A DNA stretch of 48,266 nucleotides from Peptococcaceae bacterium (lineage in GTDB: Bacteria > Bacillota > Peptococcia > DRI-13 > PHAD01), in assembly GCA_024655825.1 (NCBI GenBank), contig JANLFJ010000022.1, positions 1 to 48,266 on the forward strand. The letters are read 5' to 3'. Numbering within the stretch: position 1 is the first letter of the stretch; every line of letters starts with the position of its first letter. A model generated the notes under the pieces. It was not told the origin of the DNA. It saw only the letters and a list, made by a program, of their open reading frames with translations, and ran no database searches. Of this stretch, positions 42,008-46,071 are shown piece by piece. Made by a program: the position numbers and the translations under genes.

Positions 42008-42583
42008 ATGGTCACGGTAATGGTTTGTTGTTCAGATACAAAACGCCGCAACAGGATTACCTCCCTTTTGCAGTCCATGGGCCTAACGGTTGTAGCGGAA
42101 GCATCCGACGCCCATCAGGCCTTGCGGTTGGTCCGTTCCTCCCAGCCTCGCCTCGTCGTGTTTGATATTGAAAGGTACGATTACTCCGAGATGGACACCG
42201 CCTCCCTTATCGCCAGGGAAAAGCTGGCCCCCGTGATACTGGTCACCGTTCCCCACCAGCAGAATGTGATTGACGCTATTAAAGAGGAATACGTCATGTC
42301 CTACGTGGTAAAACCGCTCAACAAGTGGGCGTTGGAATCCGCCGTTAATACCGCCCTGGCCAACTTTAACAAGATGGAACAAAAAGAATCCGAAATCAAA
42401 AAACTCAAAGAATCACTGGAAACGCGCAAACTCGTGGAGCGTGCAAAACACATCATCATGCGCGACCTTAAACTCTCTGAAGCCGAAGCGTTCCGGCGCC
42501 TTCAAAAACAGAGCATGGACAAGGGAATACCCATGAAAGAACTGGCCCAGGCCATTCTTCTGAACGAGGAACTCAAAAAGTAG
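42008..42583 (+). CDS. ANTAR-domain response regulator, RNA-binding antiterminator
   Basis: A 191-residue regulator with an N-terminal receiver (phospho-acceptor Asp53 in VVFDIE, Lys in YVVKPL). The acidic pocket is reduced to a single Asp (CSDTK), so phosphorylation may be altered. A coiled-coil linker (MEQKESEIKKLKESLE) leads to the C-terminal ANTAR domain (about 130-185): AKHIIMRDLKLSEAEAFRRLQKQSMDKGIPMKELAQAI. ANTAR domains bind paired small RNA hairpins in leaders and prevent terminator formation. The target is very probably the leader immediately downstream, before amt. GGGGAGG precedes the start. Confidence 0.9.
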   Translation: MVTVMVCCSDTKRRNRITSLLQSMGLTVVAEASDAHQALRLVRSSQPRLVVFDIERYDYSEMDTASLIAREKLAPVILVTVPHQQNVIDAIKEEYVMSYVVKPLNKWALESAVNTALANFNKMEQKESEIKKLKESLETRKLVERAKHIIMRDLKLSEAEAFRRLQKQSMDKGIPMKELAQAILLNEELKK

Positions 42584-42689
42584 CAAATAGATCAGCTGTG
42601 GGAAGGCTCTTGACCTGCAGAAACCGCTATGCCGCCCCGGCTCATCAGGTTTGATGACCCAGATATACAATATATTTTCGCCGCGGCTC

Positions 42690-42718
42690 TTGAATTTTAA
42701 ATACATTGCCGCTAAAAT
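42690..42718 (+). promoter_or_regulatory. amt promoter
   Basis: TTGAAT (42690-42695), 17-base spacer, TAAAAT (42713-42718); start near 42725. The -35 lies in the second copy of a GGCTCTTGA repeat (42605-42613 and 42685-42693). Confidence 0.65.
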
Positions 42719-42725
42719 GAAAAGC

Positions 42726-42762
42726 GATACGAAGGCGTATCCTTTTTAGGACAAAGGCGTCC
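42726..42762 (+). promoter_or_regulatory. ANTAR-target dual hairpins of the amt leader
   Basis: Hairpin 1: GATAC (42726-42730), loop GAAGGC, GTATC. After a 7-nt linker, hairpin 2: GGAC (42749-42752), loop AAAGGC, GTCC (42759-42762). Both loops have six bases with G at position 4. The 3' half of hairpin 2 is also the 5' arm of terminator 1, so the two folds exclude each other. Confidence 0.75.
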
Positions 42763-42795
42763 ATAGACAGGCAGAACCGGTCTGTGGGCGTTTTT
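42756..42795 (+). terminator. amt leader terminator 1
   Basis: GGCGTCCATAGAC (42756-42768) pairs with GTCTGTGGGCG and the following T residues (from 42780), with an 11-base loop and five T at 42791-42795. It is prevented if hairpin 2 forms. Confidence 0.75.
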
Positions 42796-42828
42796 CATTG
42801 TTTCCTTAACAAACAAACGGTTGAGAAC

Positions 42829-42876
42829 GAAGGCGTTCTCGGCGGGAAAATCCTGTCCGGGAGCGCCTTTGTTTTT
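42829..42876 (+). terminator. amt leader terminator 2 with overlapping ANTAR-like hairpin
   Basis: GAAGGCGTTCTCGG (42829-42842) pairs with CCGGGAGCGCCTTT (42857-42870), 14 pairs, then GTTTTT. The competing hairpin 3 is GAGAAC (42823-42828), loop GAAGGC, GTTCTC (42835-42840). No second hexaloop hairpin sits beside it; only a TTGTTT/AAACAA stem with a 7-base loop occurs just upstream. Confidence 0.7.
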
Positions 42877-42910
42877 ATAAATAATATAATGAAAGGAGAA
42901 ATAAAAAACC

Positions 42911-44260
42911 ATGAGAAAAAAATCACTGTCAACCTGCTTGCTTTTACTTTCTTGCGCCGCTGTCTTTCCCTTTCCGGCGCTGGCCGCCGAATCATCCGTC
43001 GACCCGGGCGACACCACGTTTATCCTTATCTCCTCCGCCCTGGTTATGCTGATGACTCCAGGCCTGGCTCTCTTCTACGGCGGGATGGTTCGTAAGAAAA
43101 ATGTGCTTAGCACCATCATGCAGAGCTTTTTCATCATTGCTCTCATATCCGTCCAGTGGGTTCTGGTAGGCTACACCTTAGCCTTCGGCCCAGATAAGGG
43201 CCACCTGATAGGCTCTTTTCAGTGGCTCGGCTTCCGCGGCGTGGGTATGGACCCCAACCCTGATTACGCCGCAACAATACCCCACCAGGCTTTCGCCGCC
43301 TTCCAGTTAATGTTTGCCATCATAACACCGGCCCTGATTACAGGAGCATTTGCCGAGCGCATGAAATTTTCGGCGTTTGTTCTGTTCACCCTCTTCTGGT
43401 CAACATTCGTTTATGACCCGCTGGCTCACTGGGTCTGGGGCGTGGACGGCTGGCTCAGAAACCTTGGAGCCTTGGATTTTGCCGGGGGTACCGTGGTTCA
43501 CATCAGTTCAGGCGTCTCCGGTCTCGTGGCCGCTTTCGTCCTCGGTAAAAGAAAGGGGCACGGTTCCGGTTCCTTGACCCCCCATAATATACCCATGACC
43601 GTTATGGGTGCAGGGTTGCTCTGGTTCGGCTGGTTCGGTTTCAACGCTGGGAGCGCCCTGGCTGCCGGAAGCCTGGCCGCAAGCGCCTTCATTGTTACCA
43701 ATACCGCAGCGGCGGCCGGCGCAATTTCCTGGGTGGCTTGCGAAAAGGCCCGCAACGGCAAAGCGACTGTCCTTGGCGCGGCCAGCGGAGCTGTGGCAGG
43801 ACTTGTGGCGATCACCCCGGCTTCCGGGTTTGTAGGTCCCCTTTATGCCATTTTAATTGGGCTAGCCGCGGGTGCTTCCTGTTATTTAGCCGTGGCCGTC
43901 GTAAAAGCCAAACTGGGATATGACGATTCCCTGGATGCTTTCGGTATTCACGGGGTAGGAGGCGTCCTGGGTGCCCTGGCCACCGGTATCTTTGCTTCCA
44001 CGGCCATTAACGAAGCCGGCGCAAACGGGCTTATCTTTGGAAACCCGCAGCAGCTGGCGATACAGGGCCTAGCCGTGCTGGTCACCATCGTTTTCGTGGG
44101 TGCGAGTACCTTCTTGATTTTGAAACTTGTCTCCTTCCTCTGTGGCGGGCTGCGGGTCAGCGCCAAAGAAGAGGATGTCGGCCTCGACCTGACCCAGCAC
44201 GGTGAAGACGCGTATGACAGCGCAGGTCTTGGCACCAGCGCGCTTTATTCCACCAATTAA
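42911..44260 (+). CDS. amtB: Ammonium transporter
   Basis: A 449-residue Amt channel that conducts ammonium across the cytoplasmic membrane. An N-terminal signal-like segment (SLSTCLLLLSCAAVFPFPALAA) precedes the mature protein, followed by about eleven helices: FILISSALVMLMTPGLALFYGGMV, AFAAFQLMFAIITPALITGAFAERM and WFGFNAGSALAAGS. GVGGVLGALATGIFA near residue 350 follows the conserved His of the twin-His pore. The cytoplasmic tail is acidic. Expression is controlled by the leader with two terminators, and glnK follows by 29 bases. Confidence 0.95.
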   Translation: MRKKSLSTCLLLLSCAAVFPFPALAAESSVDPGDTTFILISSALVMLMTPGLALFYGGMVRKKNVLSTIMQSFFIIALISVQWVLVGYTLAFGPDKGHLIGSFQWLGFRGVGMDPNPDYAATIPHQAFAAFQLMFAIITPALITGAFAERMKFSAFVLFTLFWSTFVYDPLAHWVWGVDGWLRNLGALDFAGGTVVHISSGVSGLVAAFVLGKRKGHGSGSLTPHNIPMTVMGAGLLWFGWFGFNAGSALAAGSLAASAFIVTNTAAAAGAISWVACEKARNGKATVLGAASGAVAGLVAITPASGFVGPLYAILIGLAAGASCYLAVAVVKAKLGYDDSLDAFGIHGVGGVLGALATGIFASTAINEAGANGLIFGNPQQLAIQGLAVLVTIVFVGASTFLILKLVSFLCGGLRVSAKEEDVGLDLTQHGEDAYDSAGLGTSALYSTN

Positions 44261-44289
44261 TATTAAAAGTAAAAGGAGGTTTGAACTCG

Positions 44290-44628
44290 ATGAAAAAAGT
44301 CGAGTGTATCATCCGCCCGACCAGGCTGGATGAAGTCACCAGCGCCCTGAACAAGTTCGGAGTGCACGGGATGACCGTAACCCAGGTCATGGGCTGCGGG
44401 CTGCAGAAAGGCCGTCGGGAAGTATACCGCGGGACGGTCTATGACATTCAATTGCTCCCCAAGCTAAAAATAGAAATCGTTGTTCCAGACCATCAAGTGG
44501 ATGAACTCGTAAAAATTGTCACCGGCAATGCCTGGTCGGGGGAAATCGGGGATGGCAAGATTTTTATCTATGAGATCGAAGATGCCATCCGCATCAGGAC
44601 CGGCGAGCGAGGAGAGGCCGCCATCTAA
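44290..44628 (+). CDS. glnK: PII signal-transduction protein
   Basis: A 112-residue PII protein that senses 2-oxoglutarate and ATP/ADP and blocks Amt by inserting its T-loop. It has MKKVECIIRPTRLDEVTSALN, the T-loop RGTVYDIQLLPK with the Tyr often modified in other bacteria, and the C-terminal GDGKIFIYEIEDAIRIRTGERG. The T-loop is shorter than in enteric GlnB. The ATG at 44290 has GGAGG at 10 bases; a TTG at 44281 is too close to it. Pairing with amt is the common arrangement. Confidence 0.93.
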   Translation: MKKVECIIRPTRLDEVTSALNKFGVHGMTVTQVMGCGLQKGRREVYRGTVYDIQLLPKLKIEIVVPDHQVDELVKIVTGNAWSGEIGDGKIFIYEIEDAIRIRTGERGEAAI

Positions 44629-44736: not shown

Positions 44737-46071
44737 ATGCAAAGGCTTAGCAAAGAGGATATAGTCCGCCTGGTCTCAGAAAACAATGTCAAATTCATCC
44801 GGCTGCAGTTTACCGACATCATGGGCGTCCCCAAAAATGTCTCCATAACCGTCAAACAGCTGGAGAAAGCCTTGAACAACGAGTTGATGTTTGACGGTTC
44901 TTCCATCGAAGGCTTTGTGCGCATTGAGGAATCGGACATGTATCTTTATCCCGATCCCGACACCTTTGTCATTTATCCCTGGCGCGCTTCTGAAGAAGGA
45001 GGAGTGGCCAGGTTAATATGCGACATCTATAACCCTGATGGAACGCCTTTCGCCGGAGACCCGCGCTTCGTCCTGCGCCGGGCGCTCAAAGAAGCGGCCA
45101 GCATGGGATATACATTCAATGTCGGTCCTGAAGCGGAGTTTTTCCTCTTCCATACCGCCCCCGACGGTTCCCCTACAACCAATACCCACGACCGGGCCGG
45201 GTATTTTGACCTTTCGCCAATTGACCTGGGAGAGAACGCTCGCCGCGATATTGTGCTAACCTTGGAAAAAATGGGCTTTGAGATAGAAACTTCTCACCAT
45301 GAAGTAGCTCCTGGCCAGCACGAAATTGATTTCAAATACTCCGATGCCCTGAATATCGCCGATAAAATCATTACCTTCAAAATGGTTGTACGCATCATTG
45401 CTCAACGCCACGGCCTGCATGCCACTTTTATGGCTAAACCCATCTTTGGCGTAGCCGGCAACGGAATGCACATGAATCAATCCCTCTTTAAGGACGGCCA
45501 AAACGCCTTTTACGATCCCGAGGCCCCTGACCAGCTCAGCGAAACAGCAGTACACTATATCGCCGGCATCCTCAAGCACGCCAGGGCCATCACCGCTGTT
45601 ACCAACCCGACAGTCAACTCTTACAAACGCCTGGTTCCCGGCTATGAAGCGCCGGTCTACATTGCCTGGTCCTACCGCAACCGCAGTCCTCTCATTCGCA
45701 TACCGGCAAAAAGAGGCCTTTCCACCCGGATCGAGCTTCGCAATCCCGATCCCAGCTGTAACCCGTACCTGGCCCTGGCCGTAGTGCTGATGAGCGGGCT
45801 GGACGGTATAAAAAACCGGCTTAAGGCCCCGGCTCCCTGCGACCGCAATATTTACGAAATGACCCCCGTGGAGCGCTGGGACCTGGGAATCGGCAGCCTT
45901 CCCGGAACACTGCAGGAAGCCATTGAGGAATTGTCAAAGGACGAGGTCGTAAAACAAGCCCTGGGGCCGCATGTTCTTGACCGTTACCTGGAAGCCAAGA
46001 TCCGCGAATGGGACGAATACCGCACCAGGGTACACCAGTGGGAACTGGACAGGTATCTCTCGATATATTAA
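44737..46071 (+). CDS. glnA: Glutamine synthetase type I-alpha
   Basis: A 444-residue enzyme joining ammonia and glutamate. The beta-grasp N-terminus has [14 protein letters not shown] and [18 protein letters not shown]; the catalytic part has [51 protein letters not shown] and RIPAKRG. The length and lack of the adenylylation-type insert fit the GSI-alpha form of Firmicutes, controlled by feedback rather than adenylylation. It can be made from its own promoter and by readthrough from amt-glnK. A strong terminator follows. Confidence 0.96.

Follow-up and report, generated by a model that had tools for sequence, protein, structure and literature searches.

The closest known counterparts of the leader studied here are the dual-hexaloop RNAs of the EutV/eut, NasR/nasF and AmiR/amiE systems (Ramesh et al. 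2012, PMC3369931), which serve as our reference for both of its attenuators. In E. faecalis eut, antitermination in vivo requires both hexaloops (PMC3369931), and the distance between the two hairpins, P1 and P2, is limited: a 14-nt linker causes a drastic loss in vivo, and an additional 20 nt a loss in vitro (PMC3369931, PMC8934654). Yet in the EutV-RNA structure one ANTAR dimer contacts a single hexaloop, with G4 as the sole base-specific contact and A1 uncontacted; EutV has similar affinity for isolated P1 and P2, and the minimal motif has been redefined as one hexaloop (PMC8934654). The attenuator mechanism, and the use of several ANTAR attenuators in one transcription unit, are already known: Desulfotomaculum acetoxidans has at least 13 ANTAR attenuators in six transcription units, and E. 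faecalis eut has four terminators (PMC3369931).

Here we describe a leader in which a dual-hexaloop attenuator (unit 1) is followed by one with a single hexaloop (unit 2) before the ammonium transporter gene amt. With a probability of roughly two in three, we read it as a two-stage ANTAR antitermination gate whose second stage acts on the single hexaloop. In the literature that we covered, which included subscription journals only thinly, single-hexaloop attenuators were not reported beyond the minimal-motif proposal, and we found neither a conserved single-hexaloop class nor back-to-back mixed gates.

Locus and regulator

The window (the whole 48,266-nt stretch analyzed) comes from a 3.16 Mb draft genome that is 99.5% complete, labelled G000. 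The gene order is a metH-like gene, an ANTAR response regulator, a 327-base intergenic leader, amt, glnK and glnA. All window coordinates below are on the + strand. The amt gene (42911..44260; PF00909, 4.1e-131) is the only ammonium transporter gene of the genome; it is followed by glnK, encoding a P-II protein (44281..44628; PF00543, 3.8e-29), and by the glutamine synthetase gene glnA (44737..46071; PF00120, 2.1e-144). The interval between the ANTAR gene and amt holds the two attenuators in succession, ahead of amt-glnK-glnA.

The neighboring regulator is an ANTAR protein. The gene (42008..42583) encodes 191 amino acids comprising a receiver domain, a coiled coil and an ANTAR domain (Pfam PF03861, 1.6e-20; PF00072, 5.2e-11), and it is the sole ANTAR match genome-wide. 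The protein aligns with EutV (6wsh) and Rv1626 (1s8n). The EutV RNA contacts R142, K149, E160, Y164 and M172 correspond to R140, K147, E158, F162 and M170, with F replacing Y164, and the genome in this sense has an ANTAR protein with the RNA-contact residues. The receiver domain retains a phospho-acceptor-like residue, D53. Receiver domains usually have a pair of acidic residues, of which this one has only D10, and we saw no gene for a histidine kinase adjoining the ANTAR gene. Activation of this regulator may be unusual.

A sigma-70-type promoter-like site (TTGAAT-17-TAAAAT, 42690..42718), recognized solely by its match to the consensus at 9 of 12 positions, predicts a start at about 42725, at the foot of the first hairpin, so the leader RNA would open with P1. 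A promoter search between unit 1 and unit 2 found no internal promoter.

A dual-hexaloop and a single-hexaloop attenuator in one leader

Unit 1 is a dual-hexaloop ANTAR antiterminator of the kind described by Ramesh et al. (2012, PMC3369931). Its P1, GATAC[GAAGGC]GTATC (42726..42741), resembles the P1 of three other loci (L003, L005 and L006). After a 7-nt linker comes P2, GGAC[AAAGGC]GTCC (42749..42762), which carries both A1 and G4 and overlaps terminator 1 (42754..42794; -23.4 kcal/mol, z -5.7). The likeness to the reference RNA thus includes two adjacent hexaloop hairpins, a 7-nt linker, the overlap of P2 with the terminator, the adjacent ANTAR gene and the downstream nitrogen genes. Unlike the reference, the leader has two units, and the loops of P1 and of hairpin 3, the lone P2 of unit 2, begin with G rather than A.

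Hairpin 3, GAGAAC[GAAGGC]GTTCTC (42823..42840), folds at -9.8 kcal/mol (z -3.9), and no shuffled sequence was as stable. It overlaps terminator 2 (42829..42877), in which 14 outer pairs (42829-42842 with 42857-42870) are followed by GUUUUUA; the first-pass claim of a GAAGGC hairpin overlapping a second, 14-bp terminator before amt is therefore confirmed at 42823-42840 and 42829-42870. The terminator fold has a predicted energy of -31.3 kcal/mol for 42829-42876, and positions 42821-42880 fold at -40.1 kcal/mol (z -8.1; 0 of 200 shuffles as stable), so that terminator 2 is predicted by energy to be stronger than terminator 1. Terminator 2 draws its 5' arm from the loop and 3' arm of hairpin 3; the two folds are mutually exclusive. 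In both units, then, a P2-type hairpin overlaps an intrinsic terminator, and both the anatomy and the fold energies support the earlier description of two successive terminators that are each accompanied by a hexaloop hairpin of the ANTAR type. We also considered unit 2 as a recent tandem duplicate of unit 1, an origin that is not favored; by eye, the two terminators are alike only in their core.

The three hairpins of the leader share the closing ..AC[loop]GU.. reported for eut, and G4 is present in all three loops. Hairpins 1 and 3 have the same loop, GAAGGC, and hairpin 2 has AAAGGC; A1 therefore occurs in P2 alone, and G1 in P1 and hairpin 3. Loops with G1 were also found in relatives, in 9 of 130 P2-type loops and in the P1 loops of G002 and G009. 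Rfam gave no real match in the leader at either gathering or permissive thresholds.

Hairpin 3 had been described as lacking an adjacent hexaloop partner, and our scored search for G4 hexaloops found none above background in the 60 nt upstream. The best candidate, a 2-bp CA[AACGGU]UG, scored 7, where the background has its median at 6 and its 95th percentile at 12.8. Unit 2 consequently does not have the two adjacent hexaloops (linker about 5-12 nt, the range reported in eut) that unit 1 has; by sequence it is a single-hexaloop unit, with one G4 hexaloop on a terminator and no 5' partner. It resembles the reference RNA in placing a P2 hairpin on the terminator and differs from it in having a single hexaloop. 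With the minimal motif of the EutV-RNA structure (NAR 2022, PMC8934654) it shares one G4 hexaloop as the protein-binding element; that paper, based on structure and SPR, keeps both hairpins for antitermination, whereas the natural leaders considered here do without the second.

It is conceivable that unit 2 is instead a degenerate dual motif with a non-canonical partner, such as the AU-rich UUGUU[UCCUU]AACAA just upstream of hairpin 3. Local folding does predict this hairpin, about 10 nt of linker separating it from hairpin 3, and unit 2 of another amt leader (G004) has, read by eye, an ACUUU[AAAGC]AAAGU pentaloop directly 5' of P2. The element in the window, however, has no G4, is not six bases long and closes on a weak AU stem, and nothing similar is conserved in the lone-unit leaders of type III glutamine synthetase (GSIII) genes discussed below. 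We consider a degenerate dual motif very improbable.

Detection of units and their link to ANTAR proteins

Our detector required a hexaloop hairpin with G4 and a closing C-G pair, together with a terminator starting in the loop or 3' arm of that hairpin. Applied to 630 kb around ANTAR genes, it returned 73 units; shuffled versions of these loci gave none. From 45 detected units we built a covariance model, R1. In a whole-genome search R1 recovered unit 1 at E 1.6e-6 and unit 2 at E 5.1e-5, values that show consistency rather than an independent test, both units being among the training rows. The top three matches of the genome were the two window units and a GSIII unit (C8:3555, E 7.6e-6). Pair counts on the R1 alignment are inflated by selection, because the sequences had been picked for pairing. 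A search of the genome with a 14-base pattern allowing 3 mismatches was dominated by chance, with 135 forward and 172 reversed matches.

In a sample of 398 genomes from the phylum, 121 had units at E <= 0.001. An ANTAR protein was present in 118 of these 121, comprising 93 found by protein search and 25 of the remaining 28 by PF03861, whereas among 28 sampled genomes with neither a unit match nor a protein-search match 5 passed the PF03861 cut-off and one more was weak; this cross-table is approximate, as it draws on two phylum samples with slightly different completeness limits.

Within the window's own genome, a lone unit precedes the GSIII gene (G000:C8:3555-3611, L259), and a weaker one (E 0.033) precedes the asparagine synthetase gene asnB (G000:C24:10329-10384, L260), with equivalents in G005, G009 and G002. 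In four genomes (L260, L272, L276 and L277) the asnB unit retains GGAC[AATGGC]GCCC, including a conserved A-C mismatch immediately beneath the closing pair. The GSIII and asnB units suggest a small nitrogen regulon in this genome.

Single-hexaloop units as a possible class

We scored the best G4 hexaloop upstream of each of 130 distinct units and counted P1 as present when its score exceeded the 95th percentile of shuffles. The scores were bimodal: about 54 of the 130 units had a P1 and about 76 were at background, although a partner with another type of loop would escape this search. A few assignments are arguable, such as that of the second unit of G029, which scores only via the P2 of the unit before it. 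The scored search against a shuffled background took the place of a stricter P1 detector, which had inflated the lone count by missing mismatched or bulged stems (L161, L157).

Lone and dual units also differ in architecture. The median distance from a promoter-like -10 to P2 was 25.5 nt for lone and 46.5 nt for dual units (p 8e-6), the P2 stem was 5.1 bp in lone and 4.1 bp in dual units (p 2e-5), and lone units favored GGGC..GUCC cores; in these comparisons related sequences are not independent, and promoter assignments are heuristic and cover about half of the units. In G276 the first hairpin lies about 10 nt past the -10 box, which leaves no space for a partner. The lone unit is conserved in the GSIII leaders of eight genomes from several families, where the 5' stretch is AU-rich and we found no consensus pairing between the -10 and P2. 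Some genomes, among them G000, G001, G002 and G005, have one ANTAR gene each and units of both kinds, so paralogues cannot explain the two classes in those genomes.

On balance we slightly favor the view that lone ANTAR attenuators are a distinct class, widespread in the phylum and accounting for over half of the units in our sample, which uses the same ANTAR protein as dual-hexaloop units and is stacked in tandem, either with such units or by itself, into multi-stage gates on nitrogen genes. Earlier work on finding ANTAR RNAs took two stem-loops as a requirement (PMC3369931, PMC8164766); such searches would miss single-hexaloop units, and ANTAR regulons may therefore be under-counted. Of the options first raised for hairpin 3, working alone has the best support, since units without a partner are frequent in other leaders and conserved there. 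Pairing at a distance, another of those options, is unlikely in the form of a canonical pair, given the published inter-hairpin limits (PMC3369931, PMC8934654) and the 60-nt gap between P2 and hairpin 3.

Tandem units in other leaders

The first-pass annotation had proposed a comparison of related amt leaders, and the outcome was mixed. The nearest ANTAR-amt leaders have the equivalent of unit 1 only: in G001 (amtA) P1 is CGATAC[AATGAC]GTATCG and P2 is GGAC[AAAGAT]GTCC, and in G005 they are TGACAC[AATGAG]GTGTCA and AGAC[AATGAT]GTCT. The doubling in the window is thus not ancestral to them. Doubling does, however, recur on other leaders. Taking as tandem any two same-strand units whose starts are no more than about 170 nt apart, we found such pairs in nine genomes (G000, G001, G002, G009, G004, G029, G276, G089 and G243), with starts about 54-165 nt apart. 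They precede amt in the window, at the second amt locus of G001, and in G004 and G029; nifH in G002 and G009 (L275 2874-3075, L274); GSIII in G276; in G089 a gene that looks gltB-like by eye, the stretch tested having no Pfam match; and glnA in G243. The nitrogenase of G002 and G009 may therefore be double-gated too. The order is dual-lone in the window and G243, lone-dual in G001 and the nifH leaders, and lone-lone in G004, G029, G276 and G089. In G089 the two units are near-identical, and local duplication as their origin is visible in the sequence. These patterns suggest that within-leader doubling and the single-hexaloop form both occur repeatedly in nature as variants of an already known nitrogen switch.

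The order of units bears on whether hairpin 3 depends on unit 1. An ANTAR dimer at P1/P2 might pass to hairpin 3 once polymerase is beyond terminator 1 and P2 refolds into that terminator; unit 2 itself lacks a P1, and in the published successive-binding model one hairpin likewise recruits the protein before a second brings about antitermination (PMC8934654). Such a transfer would have to span 60 nt, while 20 additional nt abolish eut antitermination. Moreover, a lone unit comes first in the G001 and nifH leaders, and there is no clear canonical P1 in those of G029, G004, G276 and G089, so that tandem lone units need no upstream dual unit. Hand-over is in our view unlikely, and hairpin 3 probably acts independently of unit 1.

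Tandems might also be left by the loss of a gene between two attenuators, in which case unit 2 (or unit 1) would be a relic, serving as a plain terminator or mostly read through. Several loci lend themselves to this history. G002 and G009 have the order ANTAR-unit-glnA-unit-amt-glnK-glnA, both units dual, with glnA between the ANTAR-proximal unit and the amt unit, and the P2 of the latter, AAGAAC[AARGGC]GUUCUU, resembles hairpin 3. In G243 (L343, G243:C107:428-646) a short C-terminal remnant of an ANTAR gene lies between the dual and lone units before glnA; loss of an ANTAR gene once between two attenuators is a possible origin of this tandem, as is an assembly effect, the locus being near a contig end. 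The single unit of the nearest amt leaders agrees with a relic as well. In the window, however, unit 2 has both its hairpin and its terminator intact, as mutually exclusive folds, a strong unrelieved terminator upstream of the only amt would be costly, and GSIII and asnB of the same genome use lone units. A relic is accordingly quite unlikely, and we return to the two-stage gate.

Operation of the proposed two-stage gate

When no active ANTAR protein is present, a polymerase would meet terminator 1, and any leakage would meet terminator 2. The active regulator, presumably a dimer, would bind the P1/P2 hexaloops and open the first stage. The same or another dimer would then hold hairpin 3, depriving terminator 2 of its 5' arm and opening the second stage. 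This stage lacks a separate recruitment hairpin and would depend on direct ANTAR binding at one hexaloop. Since G4 is the only base-specific contact and A1 is uncontacted, a lone G4 hexaloop is a plausible target in which G1 is tolerated. Given that eut needs both hairpins at a strict spacing, a single-hexaloop mode would have to use a stronger P2 stem, higher regulator activity, or both, or else hand-over.

Serial gates would multiply read-through, giving amt-glnK-glnA a lower leak and a wider dynamic range, and may, as the first-pass annotation proposed, sharpen a response to nitrogen starvation. If relief is efficient, the leak would fall as the square and the maximum output only slightly, which is a matter of arithmetic and not of data. 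Against the two-stage gate, hairpin 3, at -9.8 kcal/mol, falls far short of the stability of terminator 2 (-31 to -40 kcal/mol), pairing of G1 with C6 could cut the loop of hairpin 3 to four bases, a G1 being rare among P2 loops, and unit 2 is absent from the closest amt leaders.

Like the multi-attenuator ANTAR regulons already described (PMC3369931), the window has several attenuators in one transcription unit; the eut attenuators are interspersed between genes, whereas the pair in the window stands back to back before one gene. Back-to-back gates would be a simple natural low-leak design, and a leader with presumed dual and single targets for one ANTAR protein makes a direct comparison of the two possible.

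An AT-rich element upstream of ANTAR-attenuated promoters

An AT-rich element, AGATATACAATATATT (42661..42680), lies upstream of the -35 of the promoter-like site and is common to other ANTAR-attenuated promoters. The motif occurs in 29 of 130 unit upstream regions, compared with 32 of 2175 random windows (1.5%). In those 29 leaders an element close to GTATACAATATT precedes P2 by about 70-135 nt and lies immediately 5' of the -35; it may serve the nitrogen regulon as a common operator or UP element.
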